DNA of 64,000 nucleotides, from positions 1 to 64,000 of the forward strand of contig PSPG01000002.1 of the NCBI GenBank assembly GCA_003193925.1, in the 5' to 3' direction. This document shows positions 9,477-58,849 of this stretch, one piece after another (within the stretch, counting starts at the first letter, position 1; every line of letters begins with the position of its first letter). Position numbers and translations under genes: made by a program. The notes under the pieces are model-generated. The model saw nothing but the letters and a program-made list of their open reading frames with translations, searched no databases and was not told the origin of the DNA. The DNA comes from Candidatus Thalassarchaeum betae. Its GTDB lineage: Archaea > Thermoplasmatota > Poseidoniia > Poseidoniales > Thalassarchaeaceae.

Positions 9477-9520
9477 CCGCTTTGAACTTTGGCACGGCAC
9501 GATGGTGCATAAAATGCACC
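9477..9520 (-). promoter_or_regulatory. Promoter box and 17-base perfect palindrome
   Basis: TTCAAAGCGG (minus strand, 9486-9477) ends 20 bases before the ATG at 9457 and matches the box seen at many starts in this window. Immediately upstream lies a perfect inverted repeat, GGTGCAT-AAA-ATGCACC (9504-9520), itself flanked by GCACGA direct repeats. This has the form of an operator controlling the TSP3 surface gene. Confidence 0.5.
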
Positions 9521-9537
9521 GCTACAGCACGACGGTT

Positions 9538-10389
9538 TCATTCGTAGAAGTAGAATCCCTGACCGCTCTTGCGCCCGAGTTTGCCCTCATAGACCATCTG
9601 AACCAGCAGAGGGGCGGGGGCGTACTTGTCGTCTGCCAGTCCCTCGTGCAGGACGTTCATGATGTGCAGCACCGTGTCCAGGCCGATAAAATCGGCCAGC
9701 GCGAGCGGCCCGATGGGGTGGTCCATCCCGAGTTTCATGATGCCGTCTATGACCTCTGCCTCTGCCACTCCCTCCTGCAACGTCAGGATGGCTTCGTTGA
9801 GCATCGGGCAGAGTATCCTGTTGCTGACGAAGCCCGGCGAGTCGTTGCACGACAGCGCCGTCTTGCCCATCCTCTCGACAGTCCCGACCACAGCGGCGTT
9901 GACCTCATCGGAGGTCTGGGCGCCGTTGATAATCTCGACCAGCCGCATTATCGGGACGGGATTCATGAAGTGCATCCCGATGACCCTGTCCGGCCTGCTC
10001 GTCGCACCGGCGATCGCATCGATGCTGATGCTCGATGTGTTACTGGCGAGGATGGCCTCGGGCTTGCAGATGCCGTCGAGCTCGGCGAAGGCCGAGAGCT
10101 TCAGCTCGGGGATCTCCGGGATCGCCTCGATGACGAGGTCGCAGTCTGACGCCGCCCCCTTGTCGGTGGATGTGCGCACGCGCGCGAGAGCCGAGTCGGC
10201 ATCCTCCCGGCTCATCCTCTCCTTGGCGACGAGCTTGCCCAGAGAGCGCTCTATGGCGTCCATCCCACGCTCTATGAATTCCTGCTCGATGTCGATCATC
10301 GTGACGTCGTACCCCGCGCATGCCGCGACCTGCGCTATGCCGTTGCCCATCTGACCCGCACCGAGCACGGCTATGCTGCGAATCTCCAC
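9538..10389 (-). CDS. hbd: 3-hydroxyacyl-CoA (3-hydroxybutyryl-CoA) dehydrogenase
   Basis: The 283-residue protein has the family's usual length. The N-terminal Rossmann fold shows GAGQMG (10-15) and an acidic residue after the second strand (MIDIE), favouring NAD. The family motifs [14 protein letters not shown] and PGFVSNR follow, and the C-terminal helical domain ends with GRKSGQGFY. It oxidises (S)-3-hydroxyacyl-CoA to 3-oxoacyl-CoA in beta-oxidation or butyrate-type pathways, in the cytoplasm. It lies 31 bases downstream of the subtilase on the same strand. The acyl-CoA dehydrogenase at 16670-18088 may supply an earlier step of the same kind of pathway. Confidence 0.93.
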
Positions 10390-10420
10390 GGCCTAGCGAG
10401 TCGCAGGCAGGGGATGAGCC

Positions 10421-13400
10421 TTACTCGTCCTCTCCGGCAGCTGAATCAGCGAGGGACAGGTCTGCTGCAGCCTCGATCTCGGACATTATCTCATCGAGGT
10501 CGGGGCCGTGCCCCTCCATCCTGAGCTTGCGCGCGCGCCTGCGCCGGAGCATGGTCGCCGGCAGCACGGTGGCGGCGAGCAGTGCTATTGCGGCCAGAGA
10601 GAACCACCAGAGCATCGGCCCCGAGTTGCGGGCGTCATCGATGGCCCAGTCGATCCACTCCTGTTCGAGCACTTCTATGGACATCGAGTTCTGGTTGTTC
10701 GCTGCATCGACGGAGAGCCCATTGATCGAATGGTTCCCCGGTGTGGGGGGGATCTCGATGGTGACTAGGAACTCCTCGGATGACGGACACACGAACTCCG
10801 CGTCGTCCGCCTCCGTCCACAGCATCACCGTGGAGCCGGGCTCGCACACGCCGCTGACCACCCGGCTGGTCTCGAGCGGGGTGGTCCGATTGGCTACCTC
10901 GTAGAAGTTCAGGACGGGTGCGATGGTGTCCTTGACTATGGACAGCGTGTAGTTGTCGATATGGTCGAGGGCGTGTATCTCGATGAGGAACTGGTTGTCG
11001 CCCTCCTCGAGGTCGAAGACCACAGTGACCACGCTGGCCCCCGGCTCGATCAGGTGCCTCCCGCCGGCATCCGTCCTGCTCCACCAGATCTCCTGGTCGG
11101 GACCGCGCTGCAGAACCGCCTCGACCTCCTCGATGGCCGCCAGCCCGCCGTTCCAGTTCGCAGTGACGTGGGTGCTGTATATCGAGGGGTCCAGCAGCAT
11201 GCTCCTGCACTCGAGGAACCTGTTGTCGTTCTCCTGGGGCTCGGTCATGTCCACTGCCTCGAAGCAGACCTCGTGCACCCCCGTGTGATTGAGCTCGAAC
11301 AGCGCGCCGCTGGTTACTCCGGTGCGCTCGCTGATGAGCGCCCCGTCGATGGTGAACCGGATGTGGACCTCCTCACTCGACAGCCAGGACAGGCCCTGCC
11401 TGTGGTCGAAGAGGGCATCGTGGGTGCCGGGGCTGACCTCCCATTCGACCAACGGTACCGAGCGGTCGAGCCTGAGGGGCCATTCCTCGACAGCGCTGTT
11501 GTTGGCCCAGTCGGTCAGCTCGAGGGAGATGAGGTAGTCGCCGTCGGGCAGCGTTGTGGTGTTGATCTCGTACTCCGAGAGGTAGGTGCCCTGCCCGGGG
11601 GCGTCCTCCATGGTGATCCGCGGTATCAGCGGGTCGGACTCGCACTGCACCGTCTCATGAAGGGAGTTCAGGGCCTGTACCCTCAGGCACCAGTCCCTGA
11701 TGTCCACGGGAATCGAGATGGTCAGCGTACCCTCGCTCATGTTGACCGGGGTCGTTATCTGCTCCGGAGTGTAGTGGTAGTCGGCTTGGTCGGCAACGTC
11801 GAGCAAGGCGGCGCTGGGCGTGTGAGGGTCGAAGACGACGACGAAGTCCCTGGTTAACGAGTTACCCGCAGCGTCCCTGACCTCTATGTCGAAGACGCTG
11901 CTGCCGTGCACGTAGAAGAACGACGAGTCGGCGTCGGCTCGCTCTTCGGCCTCGGTCAACTGGAAGGTGAACTCACCGAAGCCGCTCTCGTCGAGCTCGA
12001 TCTCGGTGTCGCCGTGCCTCACGCTCGCGTCTGGCTCGGTCTGTAGCGTGTACGTCAGCGTGGCTTGGTTGGTTATCCACGGGATGTTGGAGATGGACAC
12101 GATGGGGGCGGTGGCGTCGTAGGACACCGAGAGGTAGGTTTCGGCAGAGTTGTTGGAGATGTCAGTCAAATCAGCCCTGTAGTCGTGCCACTTCTCCACC
12201 TGCGGCAGCGTGGCGTTGACCCATATCTCCCTGAACGAGACGTTCTCGGGCATGGCGAAGTGATTGCCGCTGTTCCATATGGCAGTCAGGTTGTGGTGGT
12301 TGCCATCGGTGTCGATTGCCTCGACGAGGTCCGCATCGGGGATGCTGGTGCCCTCGTCGGCCGGCTCCCAGTTCAGGTCGTCGAGGCGGAACCCGATGCC
12401 CGTGTCGAGCGCGTGCAGCCTGACGGGCACGATGACGTTGGTCTGCGTCAGGTTGGCGGGGACCTCGAAGCCGACCTCCGGGTCAAGCTCGACGAGCTCG
12501 TAGGTGTAAGGCAGGCGCAGGCTGATGTCGCCCTCGATGATGACGTCGATGAACCCGGTCCAGATCCCGGCGGTCTCGGGCCTGTCATATGCCAGATTGA
12601 CCTGCAGGGCCGAGGCGGGGACCTGTCCTGCGAGGGTATCACTGCCGTTGGGCCAGATCGCGTCGATCTCCCCCTGCGTGAGCGATAACTGGTCTGTGAT
12701 TACCAGATCGTCGCCGCCCACGATCTCTATGTCGATCCAGAACTGGACGGTGCCACTCGGCACCGAGTAGCCGTGAACGGCTACCGAGTAGTTACCGTCA
12801 GCCGGGTCCACGATGCGAATCGTCTCGGCAGAGGAGCCGCTCCATGAACGGGCCACCTCCTCGCCGGAGGAGAACACGCCGTCCCCGTTAGAGTCGCGAA
12901 ACAGGAACAGGTCGAGGTCGGCATCATCATGCGCGTTCATCCGGATGTTCAACTCGCTGGCGTTCTTGACGGTCATGTTGTGCCACCAGGAGGCGGTCAT
13001 CTTGTTGTTGTAGACATCCTGGAAGGCCGTCTCGTTATCGAAGTGGGCCGGTTGGCTCCAACCGTAGGCGGTCACCGAGTCGACGGAGAGCGGTACAGTG
13101 GAGACTACGTGGACCGCGTCGACCCCGCTGCCCTCGGCCCAGTCGGTGACCACGCGCTCGAAGCCGGACTCCTCGGCTGCGATGTAGCCGACGGAGATGT
13201 TGAGCGCGTTGTCGTTAGTGGAAACCCCGTGCAGCGCGGTGTGCAGGACCATCTGGTGCATGCCCTGGGAGGTGGGCACGGCGAACATCTCACGTGAGGT
13301 GTCGGTGAAGGTGCCCCAGTTGTGCGAGCCGCCGCCCGCGTGGTTGTTGATCGAGCGTGACTCGATGAAGAAGGTCGACTCGCCGTAGGCGTCCGGGTCG

Positions 13401-16507: not shown

Positions 16508-16512
16508 GTTCC

Positions 16513-16537
16513 AAGGTTACTCCGAGAACCTTTGATA
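16513..16537 (-). promoter_or_regulatory. Inverted repeat over the subtilase promoter box
   Basis: AAGGTT-N8-AACCTT (16513-16532) begins six bases upstream of the subtilase ATG. It overlaps a TATCAAAGG element on the minus strand (16537-16529), the local version of the promoter box. Overlap of an inverted repeat with the core element suggests repressor control. Confidence 0.4.
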
Positions 16538-16561
16538 CTGCCGGTTGGCTGTCCCGTCAAA

Positions 16562-16571
16562 TCAAAAGCGG
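16562..16571 (+). promoter_or_regulatory. tRNA-Gln promoter box
   Basis: TCAAAAGCGG ends 23 bases before the mature 5' end of tRNA-Gln, exactly the spacing of TCTTAAGCGG before tRNA-Glu. Confidence 0.55.
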
Positions 16572-16593
16572 GGACTCGTCAGGAATGCCTCGG

Positions 16594-18088: not shown

Positions 18089-18151
18089 ACTGCCGGCTCA
18101 ATCCGGCTAATATTAGAGGTTTTGGATACAAAGATTCCATTTGGAGCACGC

Positions 18152-19506: not shown

Positions 19507-19516
19507 CCGCTTATGG
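19507..19516 (-). promoter_or_regulatory. asnS promoter box
   Basis: CCATAAGCGG on the minus strand ends 27 bases before the asnS ATG. The guaC gene has TCTTAAGCGG at the same 27-base distance, supporting a core promoter with a very short or absent leader. Confidence 0.5.
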
Positions 19517-19552
19517 GTTAAGAAACCTCGATTCTCAGAGGGCCGGATGAGG

Positions 19553-19626: not shown

Positions 19627-19673
19627 AGTGTGCCGAATTGACGCCACTCTATAACCGCGACGGAGCCAGTGAA

Positions 19674-20402
19674 TCAGCTGAGTCTACCGTTATCCTTCAG
19701 CAGAGTCCGGACACTCGATGAGGAGGACATAACGACCGCATCGCAGATGCTCACAAACAACCCGACATCGACGACGCCGGCAACGGACCGTATCTGTGAC
19801 TGGAGCGATTCGGGGTCGGAAATAGTGGGGCCGAACTCGCAGTCGAGGATGTAGCCGCCGTCGTCGGTGAGGTAAGGGGCGCGGCCCCCTCTGAGGCGGA
19901 CCTCGCCCGGGCAGATTCTCGCCATGTGATCCCTGACATCCTCCCAGTCGGAAGCGACGACCTCCATCGGCAGGTCGAACGCCCCTAGGACACCAACCTG
20001 CTTCCGGTCATCGGCAACCACCACCATCGCCCTCGATGCCTCAGCGACCCTCTTCTCGCGGGTCAGCGCCCCGCCGCCGCCCTTGATGAGGTCGAAATTC
20101 GGGTCGAACTCGTCAGCCCCGTCGATGGTCAGGTCGAGCTCGCCGGCCTCGTTTAGCGTCAGAAGCGGGATTCCCAGGCTCTCCGACAACTCGCGCGTGG
20201 CCTCACTGGTCGGCACGCCAGTCACATCGAGCCCCTCCTCGGCCACGCGGCGTCCGATCTCAAGCACCGTGTAGCGAACTGTGGAGCCAGTGCCCAAGCC
20301 CAGTTTCATGCCACTGCGCACGAATGAGCAAGCAGCGATCCCGGCCTCGCGCTTGAGCGCCTCGATATCGTCCACGATGCGCGCTGGAGGCGCGCCGCGC
20401 AT
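19674..20402 (-). CDS. rpiA: Ribose-5-phosphate isomerase A
   Basis: From the ATG at 20402 the protein is 242 residues, normal for RpiA. A longer in-frame extension would run into the RNase P RNA gene and is rejected. Visible motifs are GLGTGST (35-41, phosphate loop), DGADE (94-98) and KGGGGALTREK (107-117) with the catalytic Glu. It interconverts ribose-5-phosphate and ribulose-5-phosphate in the cytoplasm, supplying ribose for nucleotides. It is divergent from the RNase P RNA. Confidence 0.95.
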   Translation of the reverse strand: MRGAPPARIVDDIEALKREAGIAACSFVRSGMKLGLGTGSTVRYTVLEIGRRVAEEGLDVTGVPTSEATRELSESLGIPLLTLNEAGELDLTIDGADEFDPNFDLIKGGGGALTREKRVAEASRAMVVVADDRKQVGVLGAFDLPMEVVASDWEDVRDHMARICPGEVRLRGGRAPYLTDDGGYILDCEFGPTISDPESLQSQIRSVAGVVDVGLFVSICDAVVMSSSSSVRTLLKDNGRLS

Positions 20403-20484
20403 GATGGTTTCCGCCTCGGATTCGCCCGGAGATGGGTGATTTCGGCGACCGAGGGGTTCATGCGAGGGTCGCGCGCCCGCAGAT

Positions 20485-20784
20485 GCGAGGGAGCAGGAGG
20501 GTCGCTGACAGTGTACGACACTGAGGAAAGTCCCCTCTCCGCGATGCAGGTGGTCCGACGTGAGTCGGAGGTCCGGGAGGGCCGGCTCTGCAACAGAAAC
20601 GAACCGCGCCAGGCGCACTGTGAACCCGAAAGGGGGAGGTTTCCTGACCGTGGCTGGAACGAGCACCCCCGCCGGAGCAAGTCCAAGCAGGTCCGCATGG
20701 CATCGACAGGACCGGGTAGGATGCATAGTTGAATGCGACCAGCCGCAAGGTGAACAGAAAGGGGCTTACTCCCTGCACCCTCGC
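20485..20784 (+). ncRNA. rnpB: RNase P RNA (archaeal)
   Basis: The conserved core is visible: GAGGAAAGTCC (20523-20533, CR-I), ACAGAAAC (20593-20600), and near the 3' end ACAGAAA followed by GGGCTTACTCCC (CR-V region). The ends pair as a long P1 helix, GCGAGGGAGCAGGAG at 20485 with CTCCCTGCACCCTCGC ending at 20784. The length of about 300 bases fits archaeal type A RNase P RNA. It is the catalytic RNA that removes tRNA 5' leaders. Exact ends are estimated from P1. Apparent reading frames on both strands here are artefacts. Confidence 0.93.
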
Positions 20785-24137: not shown

Positions 24138-25079
24138 ATGGAACTGGTCACAGGCGGTGCCGGGTTCATCGGCTCCCACCTGGTGGATTCACTGGTAACT
24201 CAAGGGGAGCGCGTGCGCGTCCTCGACAACTTCAGCAGTGGTCGCGAGGAGTTCCTCTCCCAACACTCGGGCTCGGGTATGGTCGAGGTCGTCAGGGCCG
24301 ACCTGCTTGACCTAGAATCGGTGAATTCGGCTATGGACGGGGTCGAAACCGTCCATCACATGGCTGCCAACCCCGACATCCGGCTAGGGACCGAAGTCAC
24401 CGACACCGACCTCAGGCAGGGCACTATCGCCACCTACAACGTGCTCGAGTCGATGCGTCTCACGGGAGTGGGTAAAATCTCATTCTCGTCATCGTCAGCC
24501 GTGTACGGCGAGGCTGATCGGATGCCCACGCCCGAGACCTACGGCCCAATCAAGCCAATTTCCCTCTACGGAGCGTCCAAACTGGCCTCCGAGGCCCTCA
24601 TCACCGCATGGTGCGGCACCTTTGGCGCCAAGGCCTGGATTCACAGATTCGCCAACATCGTGGGCCCGAGGGGCACGCACGGAGTCATCTACGACTTCGT
24701 CCACAAGCTCAAGGCGGATCCGACCCGGCTTGAAGTCCTCGGCGACGGCCTCCAGGAGAAGTCTTACATGTCCGTCGAGGACTGTGTAAGCGCCATGCTC
24801 CACCTCGTCGACGGTGTCGATGACGAGGTGAACCTGTACAACCTCGGGACCGGCGACACCTGCTCGGTCCGCCGCATCGCCGAGATCGTGGTCGAGGAGA
24901 GTGGCCTCAAGGGAGTCTCCATCGAGTACACCGGGGGTGAGCGTGGCTGGGCCGGCGATGTGCCCAAGACCTCGCTAGACGTGGGGTGCCTGTTCTCCAC
25001 AGGTTTCGTGCCCGGAATGCAGTCTGAGGCAGCAATCAGGCAAACTGCGTGCGCGCTCATCGGCGAGATAGGCCTGTGA
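24138..25079 (+). CDS. NAD-dependent nucleotide-sugar epimerase/dehydratase (GalE-like)
   Basis: The 313-residue extended short-chain dehydrogenase begins with GGAGFIG (6-12), followed by VLDNFSSG, which indicates an NAD-binding Asp. The catalytic Tyr144-x3-Lys148 (LYGASK) and a Ser-rich strand before it are present. The family includes UDP-glucose 4-epimerases and dTDP-glucose dehydratases; the substrate cannot be fixed from sequence. It probably makes activated sugars for glycosylating the abundant surface proteins (inference). It converges on the thioredoxin-like gene with a 23-base overlap. Confidence 0.88.
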   Translation: MELVTGGAGFIGSHLVDSLVTQGERVRVLDNFSSGREEFLSQHSGSGMVEVVRADLLDLESVNSAMDGVETVHHMAANPDIRLGTEVTDTDLRQGTIATYNVLESMRLTGVGKISFSSSSAVYGEADRMPTPETYGPIKPISLYGASKLASEALITAWCGTFGAKAWIHRFANIVGPRGTHGVIYDFVHKLKADPTRLEVLGDGLQEKSYMSVEDCVSAMLHLVDGVDDEVNLYNLGTGDTCSVRRIAEIVVEESGLKGVSIEYTGGERGWAGDVPKTSLDVGCLFSTGFVPGMQSEAAIRQTACALIGEIGL

Positions 25080-25974
25080 GCGCGACTAGCGCCGAAGCCA
25101 GCAGCACAACGCCTACAGGAAGCCACCACTGCAGTCCCTCCAGCGGCTGCTCGCCTATATCGAGGCGGAGCGCCCCGAGGGTGCTCGGGCCTTGGCCGGA
25201 CAATTCGGTCTCGTGCACTGCCACGATGCTCAGTGAGTCGGCCGAGATGCCGCCGGGCAGGGTCAGAGTTCGCTGGAGGATCACTGACTCGGCGCCGATC
25301 TGCAGCTCAAGGGCCCCCCAACCGTCGTCGGGGGCGTACGACCAGTTCCCAAGGCCGCTGAGGGAGATCTCGCTGTAGGCGAAGGCGACATCATGGTGCT
25401 CGCGAATCCCGTTGATGGCCTCGCTATCCGTGATCTCGACGCTGTCACGGTTCACGAATAGGCTGATCTGCGTCTGCTCGAGGGCCGACCACTCGCTGAG
25501 AATCACCGAGATGGAGATCGAATTCGCGCCGATCGGGGCTGCTGACAAGATCAGTTTGGTGTCGCTGCTCCGGTCGCCCTCCGCTCCCAGCAGCTCCCTG
25601 TGCAGGCTCGCGCGGTCGGGAGCGCCGCCCGCGAGCAGGGAGCCGTCAAACCAGAACGAGGGGGCCGACGGAGAGCCGTCGGTGTACCTCTGGATCCGGT
25701 AGTCTGTGACCGGAGTGCCCAGTGGGTCCTCGAAATTGTCGTGGAGGGCGACCCTGGCGACCCTGTTGCCGTTCGCCTCAGTGAACTCTGGCATCCACGG
25801 GTCCACAGTGGCGCAGATCTCGCACCAAGCCGCAGTGAACTGCTCCATCAGCACCGTGTGTCCGCCTGCGGCGGACCATCCGCCCTCGGAGTCGTCCTGA
25901 GCCGCGATGGGTGTGGGGAGCAGCACGAGGGCGGCTAGGACGAGCGCTGCGCGGCTCCGGCCCGATGTTAGCAT
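25057..25974 (-). CDS. Exported thioredoxin-fold protein with C-terminal membrane anchor
   Basis: From the ATG at 25974 the protein is 305 residues with a signal peptide (ALVLAALVLLPTPIAAQ). A thioredoxin-like active site lies at C51-x2-C54 (TAAWCEIC) within QFTAAWCEICATVDPWMPEF, close to the pattern of Omp28/thiol-disulfide proteins. A beta-rich domain follows, and a C-terminal helix (WLPVGVVLLASALVAL) ends in SRR. It probably catalyses thiol-disulfide exchange on the outer face of the membrane, for example on the Cys-containing TSP3 proteins (inference). Confidence 0.85.
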   Translation of the reverse strand: MLTSGRSRAALVLAALVLLPTPIAAQDDSEGGWSAAGGHTVLMEQFTAAWCEICATVDPWMPEFTEANGNRVARVALHDNFEDPLGTPVTDYRIQRYTDGSPSAPSFWFDGSLLAGGAPDRASLHRELLGAEGDRSSDTKLILSAAPIGANSISISVILSEWSALEQTQISLFVNRDSVEITDSEAINGIREHHDVAFAYSEISLSGLGNWSYAPDDGWGALELQIGAESVILQRTLTLPGGISADSLSIVAVHETELSGQGPSTLGALRLDIGEQPLEGLQWWLPVGVVLLASALVALTGLSRR

Positions 25975-25992: not shown

Positions 25993-26004
25993 CCCCTTTG
26001 ATAA
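25993..26004. promoter_or_regulatory. Shared divergent promoter element
   Basis: Read on the minus strand it is TATCAAAGGGG, ending 19 bases before the thioredoxin-like gene. Read on the plus strand, TTTGATAA ends 24 bases before the rlmE ATG. One AT-rich element may serve both genes. Confidence 0.4.
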
Positions 26005-27290: not shown

Positions 27291-27300
27291 GCTTTGAATA
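27291..27300 (-). promoter_or_regulatory. Probable cupin promoter box
   Basis: TATTCAAAGC on the minus strand ends 30 bases before the cupin ATG and resembles the box at other starts in the window. Confidence 0.35.
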
Positions 27301-29554: not shown

Positions 29555-29563
29555 CCCTTTTGA
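29555..29563 (-). promoter_or_regulatory. rpoL promoter box
   Basis: TCAAAAGGG on the minus strand lies 25 bases before the rpoL ATG, in line with the promoter element seen elsewhere in the window. Confidence 0.4.
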
Positions 29564-29580: not shown

Positions 29581-29618
29581 TTGGACCCGGCAGGGTCCAA
29601 GTGGAGCCTAAGTTATAC
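29581..29618 (+). promoter_or_regulatory. Operator-like palindrome and TATA box of the exporter gene
   Basis: TTGGACCC-GGCA-GGGTCCAA (29581-29600) is a perfect 8-base-arm inverted repeat. About 11 bases further on, GTTATACAG (29612-29620) is a TATA-like box 25-30 bases before the exporter ATG at 29642, implying a leaderless message. A palindrome at the edge of the core promoter is the usual place for a transcription-factor site. Confidence 0.5.
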
Positions 29619-29641: not shown

Positions 29642-32242
29642 ATGGCGAATGGCGCCTCGTCGAGGGAGTCCCTTGCCCGGACCTTCGAGAGAATGGCTCT
29701 CCCGATAGTGGTTGTGAGCATCCTGATGACGGTTGCCATGGCTGATCAGCTCCTAAACGATTTCCCGGGATTCACGACCGATCTCGACTCGTTCGCCCCC
29801 GAGACTGAAACTGATGCAGCCGAGAAGAGGATGGGCGAGGTCATGGATGCCTCACCGCACATGATCTACATCCACGTCGAGCCTTACATCAAGTCTGCTG
29901 ACGGCGGCAATGAGTGCGACGAGATCGTATGTAACGTGTTGGAGTTCGGGGCCCTCCAGCAGCTCTCCGATGACTTGAGCAGGATCGAGAACTACTCCGC
30001 TGCAAATGGGAACTTCATCGTGGCGCACCTGAATGTCGCTGATATACTCGAGAGGGCGCTCGAGGAGAGGGATGAGCAAGGTCGCGCCCTAGCCGACTTC
30101 AACGACTGGGAGGAGTTTCTGGGTGCTGTCACGGACGGGGAGAAATGCACAGACGCGATCGGCAACGACCAGGCCATCGCCTCGGCCTCGTTCGCCGCAT
30201 CTGCGATGCTCCACACCGACCTCGACTACGAACCTGTGTGTGAGTGGTTGGACACCGGCGAGGGCGACCCCACCCCGAGCGCGTCCAGCACGATGTGGGC
30301 TATCGAGATCAGCGGTGAGATCAGCGACGATGAGCGTCAGGAGGAGTCATCCAGAATACGGGACCTGCTTACTGCGAAGCACCCTCTGGGCGACGACTCC
30401 GCCCTGAAGTACGGCGTCATCTCGGACGACCTGATCAGCCACGACATCAACGAGTCGACCTTGGACAACCTAGTCTGGCTGCTGCTCATCGCCGTCATGG
30501 TCGTGGTCTTGCTGCTGGCAGTGGCGTTCCGCTCCTTCATGATGGTCGCAGCCCCTCTGCTGGGGCTCTCGGCCGCTCTAGTCTGGACCTATGGTATCAT
30601 GACAGTCATCGGCGTGCGATTCTCGGTTCTCGAGGTCGCTGTGGCCCCGGTTGTATTGGGTCTGGGCATCGACTACTCGATTCACTTGCAACGTGGCTAT
30701 GAGGAGGCCAAGAGCCGGTACGCGAGTGCCGCGCGGGCTTGGGTCGAGTCAGTATCCGTTCTGCGTTTGGCTCTCTCGCTGGCTGTGGTCACCACGGTCT
30801 TCGCCTTCCTCGCTAACTCGTTCTCCGAACTCCCTCCGCTGCGTACCTTCGGATTCACTCTGGCCCTAGGCGTGATTTCGGCCTTCGTGGTAAGCACCGT
30901 CTCCGTCGGAGCGGTGCATGTATTGGTGGAGAAGACGGCTGGTGAGATGCAGCACCGCAGCCTGCAGATGGAGAGGATGGCCGACTTGGCCACTCGGTTC
31001 CAAAGGAGGAATACCGCGAGAGTCCTGCTGGTCGTCGCACTGATCACCATGGGCTCGGTGATAGTAGCGATCAGGGAGCTCGACACCAGTTTCGAGCTGA
31101 CTGACTTCCTCTCAGAGGATGGCGTAGAGATCATTGAAGTCAGGAACGACATGTACGATTCCTACGAAGCGGCGGCTTGGAAGTCGGTCATCATACTGAT
31201 CGAGCCGGCCCCGGGCAGGGATGCCCTGACAGGCGAGAAAGACCTGTTGAAGGGACTCGGGTTCTTCGATGACAGGATAGCCGGCATTCCAGAGGTGGTC
31301 AATCCGACGAACACCGATTCGCAGCGGCCGTCTTACGATGGGCTCCATCCGATCCTGCGAGACGCCGTCGAGAACGACCCATCGTTCGGCGAGTCCTACC
31401 ACTTCGGGATATTCGACGGCGAGTTTGGCGTCGCTGATGGGTTCGAGGAGGGTGACCTGATGGGAGCCGTCACGGCCTTGATGGCCAACGACTCGGCAGG
31501 AGACGGACTCAGAGGACTCACATGGGCTGAGAGAATCGGGATGCATGTCGCACTGACCGAGGACGGTCAGTCCCTACTGTATCTCAAGATGAGAGTGGAT
31601 GTGTTAGTCAGGACCAGTGTCGAGGCTCAAGAGGTAGCGGACGTGTTCCTGAAGCAGGCTCAATTGCTGGAGGAGGACGGTCTGGTAGGAGGAGAGGTTT
31701 ACGTCTCCGGCGATGTCATCGTTCTGAACAACGTGCTCTCGGGGCTGGTGGTATCCCAAGTTGAGTCGACGACGATCAGTCTGTTTGTATCCATGTTGGT
31801 GCTGATACTCCTAACCCGCAAACTGGGGCAGTCGCTGGTGGTCATCCTGCCGGTCGGCCTGGCAGGTGCTTGGGTGGTCGGGGCAATGGCCATGCTGGGA
31901 CTGAACTGGAACGTCCTGACAATCATGATCACCGCACTCACGATCGGCCTGGGCATCGACTACTCGATTCACGTATGGAGGCGTTTCGAGGCGAACCGCC
32001 TCTCTGGCATGGGGACCTGGCAGGCCATGCGCGACATGTACGCCACCACGGGGACCGCGCTGCTGCTGTCAGCTGGTACGACGATCTGCGGATTCCTTGT
32101 ACTGATGCTGTCCCCGATTCCGGTCATTCAGGACTTCGGCATCGTGAGCTCGATCTCGGTTCTGTTCTCGCTGATGATGGCGCTGCTAGTGCTCCCCGGC
32201 CTGCTGGCCGCCGAAGTCCGCTCAGTAAACGACTACAGCTGA
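29642..32242 (+). CDS. Second MMPL/RND-superfamily exporter
   Basis: From the ATG at 29642 (GTG at 29624 possible) the protein is 866 residues. TM1 (MALPIVVVSILMTVAMA) is followed by a Cys-containing external loop, a helix bundle with VLGLGIDYSIHLQRGYEEAK, a second loop, and a second bundle with TIGLGIDYSIHVWRRFEAN. The repeated GLGIDYSIH motif marks the two homologous halves. It is shorter than the exporter at 20814-23918 and shares its fold. Transport of lipids or envelope components is inferred; the substrate is unknown. Its promoter region carries a strong palindrome. Confidence 0.88.
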   Translation: MANGASSRESLARTFERMALPIVVVSILMTVAMADQLLNDFPGFTTDLDSFAPETETDAAEKRMGEVMDASPHMIYIHVEPYIKSADGGNECDEIVCNVLEFGALQQLSDDLSRIENYSAANGNFIVAHLNVADILERALEERDEQGRALADFNDWEEFLGAVTDGEKCTDAIGNDQAIASASFAASAMLHTDLDYEPVCEWLDTGEGDPTPSASSTMWAIEISGEISDDERQEESSRIRDLLTAKHPLGDDSALKYGVISDDLISHDINESTLDNLVWLLLIAVMVVVLLLAVAFRSFMMVAAPLLGLSAALVWTYGIMTVIGVRFSVLEVAVAPVVLGLGIDYSIHLQRGYEEAKSRYASAARAWVESVSVLRLALSLAVVTTVFAFLANSFSELPPLRTFGFTLALGVISAFVVSTVSVGAVHVLVEKTAGEMQHRSLQMERMADLATRFQRRNTARVLLVVALITMGSVIVAIRELDTSFELTDFLSEDGVEIIEVRNDMYDSYEAAAWKSVIILIEPAPGRDALTGEKDLLKGLGFFDDRIAGIPEVVNPTNTDSQRPSYDGLHPILRDAVENDPSFGESYHFGIFDGEFGVADGFEEGDLMGAVTALMANDSAGDGLRGLTWAERIGMHVALTEDGQSLLYLKMRVDVLVRTSVEAQEVADVFLKQAQLLEEDGLVGGEVYVSGDVIVLNNVLSGLVVSQVESTTISLFVSMLVLILLTRKLGQSLVVILPVGLAGAWVVGAMAMLGLNWNVLTIMITALTIGLGIDYSIHVWRRFEANRLSGMGTWQAMRDMYATTGTALLLSAGTTICGFLVLMLSPIPVIQDFGIVSSISVLFSLMMALLVLPGLLAAEVRSVNDYS

Positions 32243-36904: not shown

Positions 36905-37012
36905 GTATGTGAAACGGGGGGGGGAAGGCCTGTTTATCAACCGTTAGCGTGATTCACACGGACGCACCGAAGACCAACGGATTGAAGCCATGCACTCCGC
37001 CATTGCCGGGAC

Positions 37013-47841: not shown

Positions 47842-48249
47842 CAGGCCACCACCGTAGGGGCTGCGCAACTGGCGTGCAGCCTCTCGCGCAGCCCAGCCCA
47901 ACTCGATGGGCTGACGTTAATCTGCGCGGCCATGCGCGGCATTGGCCCCCATGAATCGGCCTCAGAGACCACTCCAGCGTAGCTGACCATTGTGGTAGGT
48001 GCGGGTTGCGGCACGGGTCCGTTCGTTCTTCGCAGGGTCGCGAGAGAGACCACCCTGCATGGTTCTGGACGCTTCCTGTAGAGGAGCGTCACTGTGTCGT
48101 TCGCTTGTCCGTTCATGGTGGTATGTCATGACTTCTTCATATCAAGCGAGGCAATAGTCCCGAGAGGTGAAGGTGAAAGTGAACGGAGACCCCCCATAGG
48201 CTCTCAAGGCATTGTTTTCTTAAGCGGGTGTCCGGTGGCCGGAAAACAC
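47842..48249. other. Intergenic region before tRNA-Glu
   Basis: About 400 bases without a convincing gene. A 91-codon minus-strand frame (47841-48116) is poor in acidic residues and unlike its neighbours. The last 32 bases carry the tRNA-Glu promoter box. Confidence 0.5.
48218..48227 (+). promoter_or_regulatory. tRNA-Glu promoter box
   Basis: TCTTAAGCGG ends 23 bases before the mature tRNA-Glu, the same distance as TCAAAAGCGG before tRNA-Gln, and is repeated exactly before guaC. Confidence 0.6.
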
Positions 48250-48346: not shown

Positions 48347-48356
48347 TCTTAAGCGG
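48347..48356 (+). promoter_or_regulatory. guaC promoter box
   Basis: TCTTAAGCGG, identical to the tRNA-Glu box, ends 27 bases before the guaC ATG, predicting a leader of only a few bases. Confidence 0.55.
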
Positions 48357-52900: not shown

Positions 52901-53011
52901 GCCGCCGGAAGTGGTGGTGGACAGGCCGGCGTCGATGATGGTGTAGAAGCCGGCCAGACACAGCGTCGCTGTGATTGCAAGCACCGCATACTGGTTGTGA
53001 TTCAGAGCCAT
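49967..53011 (-). CDS. Secreted or N-anchored protein with dispersed TSP3/EF-like calcium motifs
   Basis: From ATG 53011 the protein is 1014 residues. The N-terminal hydrophobic segment (YAVLAITATLCLAGFYTII) is a signal anchor or signal peptide; there is no C-terminal helix. About twenty DxDGDGxxDxxE motifs, each followed by a TNP/GTNP loop, run from residue 80 to the end, interrupted by folded segments near 190-270 and 460-530. These are calcium-binding TSP3-type repeats. Cys are few. The architecture differs from the two giant proteins by its N-terminal anchoring. Its promoter carries a box and a hairpin. Confidence 0.9.
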   Translation of the reverse strand: MALNHNQYAVLAITATLCLAGFYTIIDAGLSTTTSGGFEPAAGDIVSSDDTHVGGEDFDGDGLPDRMEQTLYGTDWREADTDGDGLDDGWEIANGLDPLDNGEPDLSEISHNSPDNEEETGEQNETFPNPDNGPFGDPDRDGLTNTEEMLLGTNPNLRDTDGDGLNDRWESEYTFVIETPSGSITLLDPLDGNWDCYLLTPEVQGQIEQDIGSSEWEEMGSQFGHSCDALLDLEQPEPDSLRNYVEERYDTNPLEEDSDGDLIADRYEIAYGQIQLGVHCGVPVFGTLTLQAPYTEYMSGHGDRTWFEQDMDNDGRLNGPGDWDTDGDGMPDGFEYCYSLDSSGDRFLNPANATDAYGDPDGDGLNNVEEYEVAYTWGPENFTNPLEFDTDGDGMPDGWEHLSGIHPNDGSNADDDPDFDGYDADGDGGVRYTGLVGVTTIHAISVEIGDYVQVNSTILWVRTVQESQYVNIPIKTLIAGWIYHINVEIGQEVTSRLQDLAVVVEEHERFTNLDEYNARDRDGDGFVDGRSTDPLVADTDGDGLIDGIEVIGWTIRIVDQGVRDVLVRSDPGAYDTDRDGLSDAVEYYETFTNASDRDTDSDGLEDFTEAVDGFVWNGSVYFTNASSHDTDLDGLSDGEEVIDGLDQYITHANNPDSDDDGLFDGSEVLNIPRPWQGATNPLNNDTDGDGQPDGWEMQVFSVQHNTKSHSLWISVTDWLPPGCDSMLECGLGPGGWVWSSYLAGFSTSGDRDGDGDMDPKYFLHEMNLSGFTVPASGRWALNPAWGSLPDSAFDIDNDTLMNSLEAPDRWDTNPVDDDTDGDKLPDGWEVYYSEIALSLGLVDNNTLSAVGARGPMDPKMFDSDVDGIDDGQEDFDGDGLNRTHLLYRYCPGWDNPQNSECHIDPTTDNGRRFYDDLENFTNYEEFENGTNPVDPDTDGDQWFDGSEVYHQDQDDDGMWSGWEYYFGFDPFDPADANIDSDGDGYLNKCENKWNTNPKSAVSFPSQGELCSDFD

Positions 53012-53022
53012 GGAGGCACATC

Positions 53023-53067
53023 CGGCCCCAATGGGGCCGTCCGCTTGAATTTGGGTCCGGATATAAT
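53023..53067 (-). promoter_or_regulatory. Promoter with hairpin, box and TATA element
   Basis: On the minus strand ATTATAT (53067-53061) is followed by ATTCAAGCGG (53050-53041), ending 30 bases before the ATG. A perfect inverted repeat CGGCCCC-AAT-GGGGCCG (53039-53023) fills the space before the start. It would lie at the transcription start or in the mRNA leader. A related repeat (CGGCCC-TACG-GGGCCG) is at 680-695. Confidence 0.5.
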
Positions 53068-53093
53068 GTTTCACGGCAACCGAGCACGGGCAA

Positions 53094-54227
53094 TCATCCC
53101 GCTATCTCCCTCGAAGAGCGTATCTCGAGCGTCAGTCTGCCGTCCTCGAACGAGGTCGAGACGTGTCCATTTCTTCCGTATGCTCGTTCCCAGCAGCCTA
53201 GCAGTACCCCACTTGCGATCGCCGGGTGAAAGACGGACGCGAAGACCAGCCTGACTCCGCCGTGCTCATCCGCCTGCGAGGTACTTTCGATCCCACCGAG
53301 TCCGTGCGAGCTGAGGTGCCGACGAGTGATGCTCACCCAGTCTGAGTGAGCCCGGACGAGGACGTGATGGCCCTCAGAGACGAACCTCTCCCTCGCCGAG
53401 TCGGCGGCTGCCGTCCACCACGTGGAGCGCTTGTCGTCGAGTCCTTCCCATCGATAGTCCTCGTCCCTGCCCTCGTGGACCACATCCAGATAGGGGAGGC
53501 AGTAGTCCTCGAATCGCAGGATGAGGTCGCGGTGCAGGAACATCCTGCGCTCGTTCATTATCGACCAACACCCAGAGGATTCAACTCGCAGATCAGCCCA
53601 CAACTCATCAGTCGACTCTTTGCCGAGATCACAGCCAATCTCCTGATCCCCCCAACTGGGCCTGCGGGGCTTCGGTACGGGGACTTGGGTGTCATCTGGA
53701 GTGAGTGTGATGACCAGTCCCTCACCCGCACTCTCCGACCACAGGAAGCGGTGTCGCTTGCCCGTAGCCCTCTCCCACGCTGCGGCGACCAGCCCCGAGC
53801 AGATCGGGCCCGAGGCAGGGCGGTCGATGAGGATCCGCGTCTCCTCGCCGTCATCTAGGAGCTCGAATCGGCCAAGGCCCCTGGACTCCCAGTCTTGGAT
53901 GGTACTCGACCAAGAAGCGGGGTCGCGTCCAGAAGGAGCGTCCCAGCCCTCGAAACCCATCATGTGCTCCTCGTACTCCATGGCAGCATGTGCTAGGCGA
54001 CGGCCGAGACTCTGCCCGGTCCTCTGTTCGAGCCTCTGGAACCACGACTCGAACCAGCCCACGCCGACTCGCCAAGCGAGCTTGTATGGGTCGTAGTCAC
54101 GAGCCATGTCGCTGTAGGTGCCGTCATCAATCGGCATCCATCTGAGTTTCATTTGGTTTTCGGGGGACAACGGATCTCCGTAGAAGTGCTTGAGGAAGAA
54201 GTTCCCGAGGGCATCGAACAGGCCCAT
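53094..54227 (-). CDS. Duplicated-domain protein, V4R-like (tentative)
   Basis: From ATG 54227 the protein is 377 residues, cytosolic. An amphipathic start (GLFDALGNFFLKHFYGD) precedes two related halves. Each ends in a motif of the form SG-x6-WERAxG followed by a short linker and a strand with G-L-x-I/L (around 143-173 and 338-370). The helix-strand-helix pattern resembles the V4R/Bet3 ligand-binding fold, but the Cys typical of V4R is absent. It starts two bases after the aminotransferase stop, so the two are co-transcribed. Function unknown. Confidence 0.72.
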   Translation of the reverse strand: MGLFDALGNFFLKHFYGDPLSPENQMKLRWMPIDDGTYSDMARDYDPYKLAWRVGVGWFESWFQRLEQRTGQSLGRRLAHAAMEYEEHMMGFEGWDAPSGRDPASWSSTIQDWESRGLGRFELLDDGEETRILIDRPASGPICSGLVAAAWERATGKRHRFLWSESAGEGLVITLTPDDTQVPVPKPRRPSWGDQEIGCDLGKESTDELWADLRVESSGCWSIMNERRMFLHRDLILRFEDYCLPYLDVVHEGRDEDYRWEGLDDKRSTWWTAAADSARERFVSEGHHVLVRAHSDWVSITRRHLSSHGLGGIESTSQADEHGGVRLVFASVFHPAIASGVLLGCWERAYGRNGHVSTSFEDGRLTLEIRSSREIAG

Positions 54228-54229
54228 GC

Positions 54230-55432
54230 TCAGCCCCGCAGAAACGCTTCGATGCGATCGAAGGCCTCGGCGAGGACCTCGACGGGCGGCAGGCACACCA
54301 TCCTGAAGTGGCCCTGTCCGAACTCAGGCGAGAAGCCCGAGCCATGGACGAGCAGGACGTGGTACTGGTGCAGCAGGTCGAGCACGAAGCGCTTGTCGTC
54401 CGCGGCCATCTTGGGGTTGGTGATGCTGACGAACAGGTAGAACGCGCCGCCCGGTGCCTCGCAGTCCAGCCCTTCGATGGTCTCGATCCTGTCCAGGCAG
54501 TAGTCCATCCTCTTCCTGATTGTGGCACGATGCCCCTCCAGCCAGCCGGTGTCGTCGGTCAAGCCCGCGAGGAAGCCGTGCTGTGCTGGCGTGGAAGCGC
54601 AGAGTCGGCTGCGGAGCAGCCGCTCGACACCATCGCGAACAAGTTCCAGCCTTCCCTGAGGGTCATGCCAAGCCATGTAGCCGACCCTCCAGCCGGGTGC
54701 GAAGTAGACCTTGGAGGCCCCGTTGAGTACGATGACCGGTACTTCTTCCGAGCGTGAGGCCACCGAGCACTGCTGGCCAGTGAAGTCCAGTCCGTCGTAA
54801 ATCTCGTCGGCGATGATGGTGCACTTGGGCCATAGGCTCGCAATCTCGATGAGCGCGTCGACCTCCTCGGGGGTGGCGACGTTGCCTGTCGGGTTGTTGG
54901 GGTTGATCAGGACCAGCAGGCGGACGCTGTCGTCCATCTTCGCGCTGATGTCGTCGAGGTCGATGCGCCAGCCGTCGTCCGGGTCCAGCCGGTACTCCAC
55001 GGTCGTTCCCCCGTACATCTGCGGGTAGGCCATGTAGGGAGGGTAGTGCGGCCCAGGTGCGAGGACGGTGTCGCCCTCTTCGAGGAAGGCTGCGAAGATG
55101 ATCTGCAGGGCCTCGGTGACGCCGTGTGTGACATAGACGTCATCAGTCGAGCAGTCCCATCCTTTCGAGCGCTCTCTGGAGGTTATGGCGTGGCGCAGTT
55201 CTGGTATTCCATAAGACGGGCCGTAGCCGTTGTCCTGCCGGTCAAGAGCCGCCTTGAAGGCGGTGACCATGTGGTCTGGAGTGGGCAATCCGTCGTAGGC
55301 CAGCGGGTCACCGATGTTGAGTCGGATTATCTCGTGGCCCTGTGCCTCGAGCTCGACGGCGGGAACCACGACGTCTCGGATGGCGTACTCTATCGCGGCG
55401 GCGCGAGCCGAGACATCAACCTGTTCGACCAC
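54230..55432 (-). CDS. Class I/II aminotransferase (alanine/aspartate type)
   Basis: The GTG at 55432 gives 400 residues; a TTG 51 bases upstream is possible. Fold type I PLP motifs: INPNNPTGN, DEIYDGLDF, SKVYFAPGWRVGY with the PLP Lys in SK, and the final Arg in HFRMVCLPP for the substrate carboxylate. It is most like archaeal alanine/aspartate aminotransferases. It probably makes alanine, aspartate or related amino acids from oxo acids using glutamate. Confidence 0.9.
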   Translation of the reverse strand: MVEQVDVSARAAAIEYAIRDVVVPAVELEAQGHEIIRLNIGDPLAYDGLPTPDHMVTAFKAALDRQDNGYGPSYGIPELRHAITSRERSKGWDCSTDDVYVTHGVTEALQIIFAAFLEEGDTVLAPGPHYPPYMAYPQMYGGTTVEYRLDPDDGWRIDLDDISAKMDDSVRLLVLINPNNPTGNVATPEEVDALIEIASLWPKCTIIADEIYDGLDFTGQQCSVASRSEEVPVIVLNGASKVYFAPGWRVGYMAWHDPQGRLELVRDGVERLLRSRLCASTPAQHGFLAGLTDDTGWLEGHRATIRKRMDYCLDRIETIEGLDCEAPGGAFYLFVSITNPKMAADDKRFVLDLLHQYHVLLVHGSGFSPEFGQGHFRMVCLPPVEVLAEAFDRIEAFLRG

Positions 55433-55507
55433 GCTCGTGCGTGATGCGGTTCGGCCATCAAATCGACGGATGAACAAAGTCAAGCCCGGGCCCTCTCAGG
55501 GGCCGGA

Positions 55508-55885
55508 GTGGGCGAGGACCCGGGAACTTTGTCGAAACTGACCGCACTCGGCTTGGTGCCGATGGGCATAGTGCTCTCTGCGGTGCTCTTCGAGATGCCA
55601 GCTGACGGGCAGCAGAGGTTCACGATGGCCATCTTCTCTCTCGTAGTGATCATGCCGCTGTGCGCGGCATTCAGTCTGGTGCTGAAACTGAGGCACTGGG
55701 GCTTGGAACACGGCACACGACCGAAGTGGATGCCTAGGTCAAGGGTCTGGCATTTACTGGCAATGCTGGTGTTGTTCGCGCTCCTCGCCCTGATGATTAC
55801 CTCCCAGGGGGACGTGCTGGGTTTCCACGGGATGCTGGGCGCATGGCTCGTGATCTGGATTACCGCATACCGGCTGATTAACTGA
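55508..55885 (+). CDS. Small four-helix membrane protein
   Basis: The 125-residue protein starts at a GTG and has four hydrophobic segments: LTALGLVPMGIVLSAVLF, FTMAIFSLVVIMPLCAAFSLVL, HLLAMLVLFALLALMI and GMLGAWLVIWITAYRLI. The cytosolic loop is basic. It is not recognised. It is divergent from the aminotransferase, and its end overlaps the end of alaS by eight bases. Confidence 0.7.
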   Translation: MGEDPGTLSKLTALGLVPMGIVLSAVLFEMPADGQQRFTMAIFSLVVIMPLCAAFSLVLKLRHWGLEHGTRPKWMPRSRVWHLLAMLVLFALLALMITSQGDVLGFHGMLGAWLVIWITAYRLIN

Positions 55886-58754
55886 TACCTAGCAACGAGC
55901 GCGCTGCATCGAGCGCGGCCGGGATGCCATCGGGCTTCGAGCCGCCGCCTTGGGCGATGGTGGGCCTGCCGCCGCCCGCTCCCCCGATGTGACCTGCTAT
56001 CGCATTGAGGATCTCGACGGCGTTGTGGCGCTCTGCTGCGACACTGCCCTCGGTGGAGGCGACTATGAGGGTCCCTCCGCCCTCTCTGCTGCCTAGCACT
56101 GCGAGGGTCGGCGTGGATGCGTCGCGAGTCAGCTCTCCGAGCATCGCCATCATCTGCTTGGCATCCCCTCCGGATTCCATCACCACGTACCTGACGCCCT
56201 CCTTCTCGACCGCAGCATCACCGCCGCCATCGGTCCGCAATCTCACGATCTCGGCCTCCAGAGATTCGATGCGCTTCTGCTGCGACTTCCACTCGCCGAA
56301 GAAGCGCGAGACGGTGCGCGGCAGGTCGTCCGGCTGCACCCCGAGGATCTCTGAGGCGTCACCGAGAAGGCGCTCCTGGCGCCGGGTGTGCTCGCGTGCC
56401 GTCCCCCCTGCCACGATCTGCAGACGCTCCACTCCGTCTTGGACTTGACTCGACCTGATGATGAGTAACTCCCCGATTTCGCCGGCTTCGTCATGGTGCG
56501 TGCCCCCGCATGCCTGGGTGTCGTAGTCGCCGATCTTGATGATGCGAATCTGGCTGTGCTTGGGCGGTCCGCCCTGATAGATGTCGAAGCCGAAGGTGGC
56601 GTCGGCGTCCGCTCTATCCATCACCAGCTTCTCGATCCCAGGATTCGCCTCGACGATCTCGTTCGCCCTGTCCTCGATGGTGTCGAGGACCTCCCTGGTG
56701 AGTCTAGAGTGGTGGGTGATGTCCAGCCTCGCGTAGCGTGCGCCCTTGTTCGAGCCGGCCTGCCAAACATGGGGGCCGAGGACCTCTCTGGCGGAGCCGC
56801 CGACGATATGGACCGCCGTGTGGTGGTCCATCAGCTGCTTGCGGCGCTCCCAGTCGACAACCCCCCTGGCTGAGCCCCCCTCAAGTGGGGCGTCGGTGAG
56901 ATGCAGGATTACACCGTTCTCGACCCGGGTGTCGACCACGTTGGCGGCGGCGCCGTTCTGAGCCAGCATGCCTTGGTCACCGAGTTGCCCGCCCCCCTCG
57001 GGATAGAACAGGGTCCGATCTAGAACCACGGCGTGCGTAGGTACTCCGAAGACCTCGCTAGAGAGGTTCAGAGATTCTACCTCCTCGCTTGACAGAGGGG
57101 CGCAGTGCAGCACTTCGGCAGTGAACTCGGTGGCGCTGGTGTCGGCGTAGTAGTCAGGTGAGGTAGCGGGCAGCGCTGCCACCTCGAAGACGCTGTCCAT
57201 GGCCTTCGCCTTGGCCGCCACCTTGGTCATCTGCGCGTTGCGGGCAGCCATGTCGGCTGCGAACCCGACGCGCACGGACAGGCCCTCCCAGCCGAGCTCG
57301 TGCGCTATCGAGACGACCATGTCGGGATTGAGGCCTCTCTCCTCAGCGAGGCGAAACAGGGTCTCGTCAGGAGCCATGGCGACGTCCTTGGGAAGCGACT
57401 TGAGGGCGGTACGCACCGCTGCCTCACCTTTCCTCAGCATCTCGTGGTAGCGCACCTCCTCGAGCTCGAGTATCCTCAGTACGCCCTCGCGCGACTGCAC
57501 GAACGAGCCCATGTCGAGATGGGTGTCCATGTGGTGCGCGCCCAAGTCAGCGAGACTGATGGACGCGCCGAGGTCGTCCTTCATGCGGCAGACGCGGCGG
57601 GCCAGCATGCGAGCCAGGTAGCCGGCCTTGGAATTGCTCGGCACTAGGCCGTCGCCCAGCATGTTGCACAGAGCGTGCATGTGATCTGGTATGGCGTAGA
57701 TCGAGGACAGCGGCTCAGTCACTTGTTTCAACTCGTCAACGGAGAGATTGATACCGGTCTCGTAGAGTCGTTCGACCAACTTGTCGTACAGTGCTTCGAC
57801 ATCGGTTCCGACATCGATGTTGAGTATCCCGGCGAGCCTCGAGAGCTCGCCCAGCAGCGAGTCGATGCCGACCGCCATCCCGAGGGAGGATGCCATCGAG
57901 TCGAAGCCGCTCAGCTCCTTGAGCCAAGCCACCGACTCGGGGTAGATTGCCTCGTAGATGGTAGGGGTACCGGCGGCGGCCCAGCAGAATCTCTCGAGGC
58001 CGTAGCCGGTGTCGATGATCTGCAGGTCCATCTCCCTGTATCGCAGGCCCTTGATCTCGATGTCGCCGTCATCGGCCTCCTCGAGGTTCATGAAGACGAG
58101 CGTGGCGAGCTCCAGCCCGCCCACTATGACCTCCAATGCTGGTCCGGCGTTGCCGCCTCCAGACCAGGGGCTCTCGACGTAGGTGAGTTCCTTGGGATCG
58201 ATGCCCAATGAATCGACGAGCATCTCGTCGCAATAGCGAACGCACTGGTCGATCCAGTAGACGACATCGTTGTCCCCAGGCCTGTTGAAAGCGTGGTGCG
58301 CCATCATCTCGAATGCCGAGAGATGCCTTCCAGAACGGCCTACTGCGGCCAGGTCTGTCAGCCTGATGCACGGCTGACTGATACCTAGGGGGTTGGCCGG
58401 CGGCGGAACTTGGCCGCTGGTGACATGAGGCTGGAAGTCAGCTATGCTGGCGATGGTCAGGTGGATGTCGTCGCGCCATCTGGCGATGATCGGGTACGGC
58501 TCCACTCTCGTGTGACCGTGCTTGTCGAAGAAATCGAGGAAAGCTTCCCTCATGGCGTCCTTCAGGGCTTTCCCAAGCATCGGAAAGCCCTCGATGACCG
58601 GGTTGCCGATGAAAGTGTACGGGTCCTCGGTCGAATCACCGCACGTAGTGCGGCTCTCGTCCCTTGTCCAGAAGCGGACTCCGGTCACCCGGCAAGTCTT
58701 GCAGATGTGTCCCGACTCCTCCCAGAAGGGGATGTGAATCTCGCCGAACGCCAT
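55878..58754 (-). CDS. alaS: Alanyl-tRNA synthetase (archaeal type)
   Basis: From ATG 58754 the protein is 958 residues. The archaeal N-terminal extension with CKTC precedes the class II catalytic domain (RPGDNDVVYWIDQC; GGGNAGPALEVIVGG; GYGLERFCWA). The editing domain has HTAVH and CGGTHHDEAGEIG, the His/Cys zinc site that clears Ser- and Gly-tRNA-Ala. The C-terminal DHHA1 domain ends GGGRPTIAQGGG. It charges tRNA-Ala. Confidence 0.95.
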   Translation of the reverse strand: MAFGEIHIPFWEESGHICKTCRVTGVRFWTRDESRTTCGDSTEDPYTFIGNPVIEGFPMLGKALKDAMREAFLDFFDKHGHTRVEPYPIIARWRDDIHLTIASIADFQPHVTSGQVPPPANPLGISQPCIRLTDLAAVGRSGRHLSAFEMMAHHAFNRPGDNDVVYWIDQCVRYCDEMLVDSLGIDPKELTYVESPWSGGGNAGPALEVIVGGLELATLVFMNLEEADDGDIEIKGLRYREMDLQIIDTGYGLERFCWAAAGTPTIYEAIYPESVAWLKELSGFDSMASSLGMAVGIDSLLGELSRLAGILNIDVGTDVEALYDKLVERLYETGINLSVDELKQVTEPLSSIYAIPDHMHALCNMLGDGLVPSNSKAGYLARMLARRVCRMKDDLGASISLADLGAHHMDTHLDMGSFVQSREGVLRILELEEVRYHEMLRKGEAAVRTALKSLPKDVAMAPDETLFRLAEERGLNPDMVVSIAHELGWEGLSVRVGFAADMAARNAQMTKVAAKAKAMDSVFEVAALPATSPDYYADTSATEFTAEVLHCAPLSSEEVESLNLSSEVFGVPTHAVVLDRTLFYPEGGGQLGDQGMLAQNGAAANVVDTRVENGVILHLTDAPLEGGSARGVVDWERRKQLMDHHTAVHIVGGSAREVLGPHVWQAGSNKGARYARLDITHHSRLTREVLDTIEDRANEIVEANPGIEKLVMDRADADATFGFDIYQGGPPKHSQIRIIKIGDYDTQACGGTHHDEAGEIGELLIIRSSQVQDGVERLQIVAGGTAREHTRRQERLLGDASEILGVQPDDLPRTVSRFFGEWKSQQKRIESLEAEIVRLRTDGGGDAAVEKEGVRYVVMESGGDAKQMMAMLGELTRDASTPTLAVLGSREGGGTLIVASTEGSVAAERHNAVEILNAIAGHIGGAGGGRPTIAQGGGSKPDGIPAALDAARSLLGIS

Positions 58755-58824
58755 GCTACCGCGCCTTACCTGCGCTCGAGCCATCGGACAGGCGGTCTTG
58801 AAGGCAATTGTACGAGAGACGCCC

Positions 58825-58849
58825 GTTGCGTTGAAAGCGAGAGCGCAAC
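58825..58849 (+). promoter_or_regulatory. rtcB promoter box framed by an inverted repeat
   Basis: TTGAAAGCGA (58831-58840) ends 20 bases before the rtcB ATG. It is bracketed by GTTGCG (58825-58830) and CGCAAC (58844-58849). A dimeric regulator on these arms would cover the promoter box. Confidence 0.45.

Follow-up and report, generated by a model that had tools for sequence, protein, structure and literature searches.

A candidate TATA element with C or G at its third base upstream of tRNAs and first-in-operon genes in Candidatus Thalassarchaeum betae and other Poseidoniales

Introduction

The first 64,000 nucleotides of contig PSPG01000002.1 of the marine archaeon Candidatus Thalassarchaeum betae (referred to below as the window) carry a recurring, short box a near-constant distance upstream of several tRNA and protein-coding genes. 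An original prediction, made from the letters of the window, quoted eleven such boxes, gave them the consensus TCAAAGCGG, and proposed that they form a fixed-spacing core promoter element that replaces or complements the TATA box and yields mostly leaderless mRNAs. All eleven strings are indeed present where they had been placed, and the spacings quoted for the tRNA-Gln, tRNA-Glu, guaC and asnS boxes are correct. The question raised by this locus is therefore what the box is: a new element, a site for a regulator, or a TATA box in altered form. Taken together, our analyses make it very probable that the box is the TATA element of the archaeal core promoter, bound by the TATA-binding protein (TBP), for which the consensus in the order Poseidoniales would read TT[C/G]A[A/T](R), rather than TT[A/T]A[A/T].

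Results

A core box at fixed distance from tRNAs and first genes

The genome to which the window belongs, a metagenome-assembled genome of Marine Group II, comprises 1.48 Mb in 23 contigs, the window being contig 16. The relatives of its asnS gene are Candidatus Thalassarchaeum and further Marine Group II metagenome-assembled genomes, which places it in Poseidoniales, phylum Thermoplasmatota. Upstream of its 41 tRNAs, taken from the whole genome, A/T content is highest at -32 to -27, and an unsupervised motif search over the same sequences returns TT[C/G]A[A/T][G/A][A/T]S (where S is C or G), starting most often at -32, with a likelihood score (ll) of 60.6 as against 26–33 in shuffled sets. 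For protein-coding genes we used 448 genes, called by a simple codon-usage script in 552 kb of this genome, and compared the upstream regions of 232 first-in-operon genes with those of 99 inner genes. The weight matrix derived from the tRNAs, applied without any training on these genes, produces a sharp peak at -29 of the first genes (22 matches, with 2.75 expected per position), and 42 matches over the interval -31 to -27 where 13.7 are expected (P=7e-10); no such peak at -29 is seen for the inner genes. The core pattern TT[C/G]A[A/T] behaves likewise, occurring 40 times at -31 to -27 of the 232 first genes as compared to 3.5 in dinucleotide shuffles (standard deviation 1.8, maximum 9), and 13 times at -34 to -30 of the 41 tRNAs as compared to 0.6. 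The excess over shuffled upstream sequence that the original prediction set as its check is thus seen for the core. Independent de novo searches of mRNA upstream regions recover TT[CG]AA at -29 in the same genome; for a member of the family Poseidoniaceae they yield T[CG]A[AT] at -28.

The box is thus present before both stable RNA and protein genes but missing before genes inside operons, as one would expect of a promoter. Its fixed distances, -29 to start codons and -32 to tRNAs, are those expected of a TATA box, given the positions at which transcription would start; the proposal of a core element common to tRNA and protein genes is supported. The genome encodes both TBP and TFB, as use of such a core promoter requires. 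Upstream of the box we also see a pattern resembling the TFB-recognition element (BRE): counting from the first T, tRNAs have G at position -6 and A at position -4 (chi2 9.8 and 15.0, respectively), and mRNAs have A at -4 (chi2 27.5). A CCGT[C/T] stretch 6–10 bases 5' of the box, at about -41 to -36 of tRNA-Lys and tRNA-Gln (L039–L118), is conserved in many Poseidoniales; taken with the G seen more generally at -6, it may belong to the BRE of this order.

Inner genes instead display a G-rich Shine-Dalgarno stretch at -12 to -6, strict Shine-Dalgarno sites being found in 33% of inner genes as compared to 10% of first genes. As the distance from box to start codon in first genes approximates that expected from box to transcription start, many first genes would be transcribed without a leader. 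The best matrix match falls at -31 to -27 in 74 of the 232 first genes, where roughly 28 are expected from neighbouring positions, so that about a fifth of first genes would be leaderless, a figure that is to be read as a lower bound. Leaderless transcription is accordingly implied for many first genes, in line with the original prediction, whereas its ‘mostly’ cannot be demonstrated.

The third base of the box is mainly C or G in Poseidoniales and A or T in the outgroups examined

We compared seven Poseidoniales genomes, drawn from two families and spanning 37–61% G+C, with four genomes of other Thermoplasmatota (36–65%). At -31 to -27, TT[CG]A[AT] is found 100 times in Poseidoniales (28.5 expected) and six times in the outgroups (8.0 expected); the counts for TT[AT]A[AT] are 33 (19.0 expected) and 96 (24.8 expected), respectively. 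Expressed as the log2 ratio of enrichment of C/G (S) over A/T (W), this amounts to +1.00 (confidence interval 0.42 to 1.70) in Poseidoniales and -2.27 (-3.91 to -1.23) in the outgroups. The A/T consensus TT[A/T]A[A/T] therefore describes the four outgroup genomes, which require A or T at the third base, but not the Poseidoniales, where the third base is mostly C or G; de novo motifs in the outgroups read TTTTAAT in Marine Group III (MGIII) and ATTAAA in another.

The strongest competitor to a genuine shift is that this is an ordinary degenerate TATA box, its third base eroded by high G+C pressure with the specificity of the machinery unchanged. The 61% G+C genome that contains the window would allow such a view, as all four bases are about equally enriched over background at this position (observed/background: A 3/0.8, C 21/4.6, G 19/4.2, T 3/0.8). 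Genomes matched for G+C content nonetheless differ, by Fisher tests, at each level compared: a 37% Poseidoniales genome (G125; 20 S, 17 W) from outgroups of 36–38% (G178 and G188; 1 S, 69 W; P=1e-10), a 51% genome (G002; 16 S, 1 W) from an outgroup of 50% (G192; 3 S, 11 W; P=9e-5), and the window's own genome at 61% (40 S, 6 W) from MGIII at 65% (2 S, 16 W; P=2e-8). G+C content consequently does not explain the shift. A 37% G+C relative retains C/G boxes before tRNAs and genes alike. Before the tRNAs of a 36.6% relative, TTSAW is found 11 times (1.8 expected) and TTWAW twice (2.4 expected); the mRNA upstream regions of G125 give 20 matches (9.0 expected) in a targeted test, although a de novo search of these same regions finds no positional motif. 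Conversely, the 65% G+C MGIII genome keeps TTTAA-type boxes. Erosion as the full explanation is rejected by the matched genomes at both ends of the range, and we regard it as unlikely overall.

Orthologous promoters point the same way. Up to 80 genomes contributed upstream regions of tRNA-Lys, tRNA-Gln and the TSP3-type, subtilase, thioredoxin-like, cupin and rpoL genes; in those genomes below 46% G+C, the third base is C or G in 18 of 21 cases (G 14, C 4, T 2, A 1), and C and G interchange between orthologs, as in TTATCAAAGG to TTATGAAAGG, or TTCAAA to TTGAAA.

An order-specific insertion in TBP

The genome encodes one TBP and two TFBs. Its TBP (L139:1465-2208; contig 18, around 24900-25610) has 247 amino acids, about 60 of which form an insertion in repeat 2 that separates the end of its first strand from its first helix. 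Counted from where this strand ends to the motif EYEPEQFPG, the interval spans 41–79 residues in 30 of 30 Poseidoniales TBPs, and 19–21 residues in other Thermoplasmatota (measurable in 13 of 17 TBPs). The insertions amount to 20–60 residues: about 20–28 in most Poseidoniaceae, and about 55–60 in Thalassarchaeaceae. No insertion is seen in MGIII or the other Thermoplasmatota sampled, and the spacing of the TBP repeats in our genome searches (145 Poseidoniales, 8 MGIII and about 58 further Thermoplasmatota genomes) agrees, where listed, with its restriction to Poseidoniales. The solved TBP structures closest by sequence (2z8u, E=7e-43; 1ais/1d3u, E=3e-34) share with the Poseidoniales protein both its two repeats and the residues of the DNA-binding face (Asn, Thr, Val, Leu and four Phe), but lack the insertion of 20–60 residues. 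Changed DNA-contact residues were looked for in the Poseidoniales protein and none was seen; fixed differences such as a Val before the first central Asn and an Ile before the second Thr are also present in the TBP of 2z8u.

Long TBP open frames of 470, 581 and 593 amino acids occur in three genomes (G121 contig 11, G067 contig 152 and G031 contig 53). In G121 and G067 the two TBP repeats lie about 0.9–1.2 kb apart, a gap that could represent a much larger insertion, or an intein.

The second TFB is divergent, about 370 amino acids in length with a basic N-terminal extension, and its gene adjoins a tRNA gene (L143:931-2046, contig 5). Its existence, along with the finding that only part of the genes have a box at the exact position, might suggest that the box is a site for this TFB, or for a regulator, serving a subset of genes. 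The box is, however, found before most tRNAs and before unrelated housekeeping genes, with TATA spacing and in both families, all of which speaks for a general element; we consider a subset-specific site very improbable.

Individual boxes within the window

The boxes of the window, including four not among the eleven quoted, are as follows.

9477–9486, minus strand: TSP3-type box (gene start 9457); TTCAAA exactly at -29; in relatives, TTCAAG or TTGAAA after CCAAA, the tail being lost.
16529–16537, minus strand: subtilase box (gene start 16507); ATCAAA at -29; ATGAAG in one relative.
16562–16571, plus strand: tRNA-Gln box; core (A)TCAAAA from -32; relatives have ATCAAA, ATACAAA or TCCAAA, with no GCGG tail.
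19507–19516, minus strand: quoted asnS box, CCATAAGCGG; not conserved.
19516–19525, minus strand: alternative TATA region of asnS, TTTCTTAACC; conserved in close relatives; a short leader with GGAAGGGAG before the start is predicted.
19649–19654, minus strand: tRNA-Lys box; TTATAG, canonical-like and without tail; TTAWA in most relatives; missed by the original prediction.
25993–26003, minus strand: thioredoxin-like box (gene start 25974); TTATCAAAGG, with TTATGAAAGG in relatives, the C to G swap mentioned above.
27291–27300, minus strand: cupin box (gene start 27261); TTCAAA; TTTCAAA or TTGAAA in relatives.
29555–29563, minus strand: rpoL box (start 29530); CTCAAAAGG, unchanged in nine relatives.
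29613–29618, plus strand: box of the gene starting at 29642; TTATAC at -29, a canonical A/T box; TTATA or TTTTA in relatives.
36935–36940, minus strand: tRNA-His box; TTGATA, without tail; likewise missed.
48218–48227, plus strand: tRNA-Glu box; core CTTAAG.
48347–48356, plus strand: guaC box; core CTTAAG at about -35, a short leader being expected.
53041–53050, minus strand: box of the gene starting at 53011; core TTCAAG at about -38.
58831–58840, plus strand: rtcB box (start 58860); TTGAAA exactly at -29.

The boxes of guaC, the gene starting at 53011, rpoL and cupin sit 5–9 bases farther upstream than the leaderless position. The quoted asnS box is rejected on the evidence of relatives and is probably not the promoter: their version has decayed to CGATGAGCGA, whereas TTTCTTAACC, immediately 5' of it, persists and is probably the real TATA region, giving a short leader with GGAAGGGAG.

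The consensus TCAAAGCGG could alternatively denote a separate, sequence-specific element that stands in for, or adds to, TATA. Near starts within the window, its AAGCGG tail is in slight excess (3 against 0). Outside the window the tail is rare (2 against 0.4); its 5 occurrences against 1.3 in shuffles are a number that shuffles also attain, in contrast to the core; and genome-wide AAGCGG occurs 700 times against 1200 for the reversed pattern, i.e. it is not over-represented. At orthologous promoters the tail changes whilst the core and BRE-like stretch stay, and two of the four tRNAs in the window, Lys and His, have a core box without it, Gln and Glu being the only tRNAs used in the original prediction. 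We hence discard the GCGG tail as a conserved part of the element. The box occupies the place of TATA, no second one having been found, and is best read as TATA with an altered third base; a separate element is very improbable. Pure chance, arising from pattern-picking in an A/T-poor upstream region, is an account that failing examples such as asnS invite and that we largely accept for the tail, but for the core it is refuted by the untrained genes and the shuffles.

Discussion

Whilst we favour a TATA element with a changed third base, several points weigh against this. In the window's own genome the S fraction of boxes (0.87) does not differ from the local baseline (0.84), which fits ‘any base’; the case for a preference consequently rests on the genomes of low and middle G+C and on the orthologs, and the count of 18 of 21 was made with hand-made patterns in genomes related by descent. 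In two small samples (G034 and G022) the shift is not significant singly, some conserved boxes are canonical (TTATA at tRNA-Lys and at the gene starting at 29642), and our start codons, coming from a simple script, are approximate. Lastly, no altered DNA-contact residue was seen in Poseidoniales TBP, such that the TBP sequence does not explain a change in specificity. Saying this, that C or G is tolerated at the third base in Poseidoniales is secure; from the pooled ratio and the orthologs, C or G also tends to be preferred.

A plausible sequence of events would begin with TBP and TFB binding the BRE, with its G six and its A four bases ahead of the first T, together with TT[C/G]A[A/T], and so positioning RNA polymerase to start about 29 bases downstream of that T. 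At many first-in-operon genes, the start would then fall on the A of the start codon, giving a leaderless mRNA; at tRNAs it would fall about 3 bases before the mature end, leaving RNase P a short leader to remove; genes inside operons would rely on Shine-Dalgarno sites. The window itself encodes an RNase P RNA (20489–20780, plus strand), consistent with such short tRNA leaders. This RNA overlaps, in antisense, the 5' part of an open frame on the minus strand (19674–20726), the true start of which is probably further in, at about 20402.

In TBP-TATA complexes, it is the 5' half of the box that the second TBP repeat faces. The changed base lies in this half, and we hypothesise that the order-specific insertion in repeat 2 underlies the third-base shift. 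The wider proposition, that Poseidoniales possess a new TATA specificity, requiring or preferring C or G at the third base, which co-evolved with the insertion-bearing TBP, is put forward tentatively, and we hold it to be possible rather than probable.

Comparison with known archaeal promoters reveals both common ground and differences. Thermococcus onnurineus has a TATA motif, TTWTAW, at -30 to -20 and an A-rich BRE (PMC5316973); position relative to the (predicted) start, BRE-like purines upstream, use by both tRNAs and mRNAs, and the presence of TBP and TFB in the genome are alike, but in Poseidoniales the third base is mainly C/G rather than A/T and the BRE is G-n-A, not poly-A. Haloferax volcanii, with a TTWT motif, a CGAAA BRE and 72% leaderless transcripts (PMC4983044), represents another group of G+C-rich archaea with a short TATA motif and leaderless first genes, as predicted here; the haloarchaeal motif, however, keeps W where Poseidoniales have C/G, and inner genes in Poseidoniales clearly use Shine-Dalgarno sites. 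For Sulfolobus solfataricus, single and first genes are described as leaderless and distal genes as Shine-Dalgarno-led (as cited in PMC3160421); on the strength of that citation, the division between first and inner genes is shared and the box sequence differs. A search of the open-access literature, with subscription papers outside its reach, found no paper dealing with promoters or TBP in Marine Group II. Against these known systems, the bases that make up the box and the insertion in TBP are what differ; position and logic are as known.

TBP and TATA are among the most conserved protein-DNA pairs common to archaea and eukaryotes, and a central A/T base in the box is generally regarded as required; an order of abundant uncultured ocean archaea nevertheless seems to use C/G there, at low and high genomic G+C alike. 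A TBP that has kept its known contacts yet gained an insertion poses a question of co-evolution that is testable with small purified proteins. In practical terms, tools that predict promoters and start codons will, if trained on A/T boxes, overlook such Marine Group II promoters.

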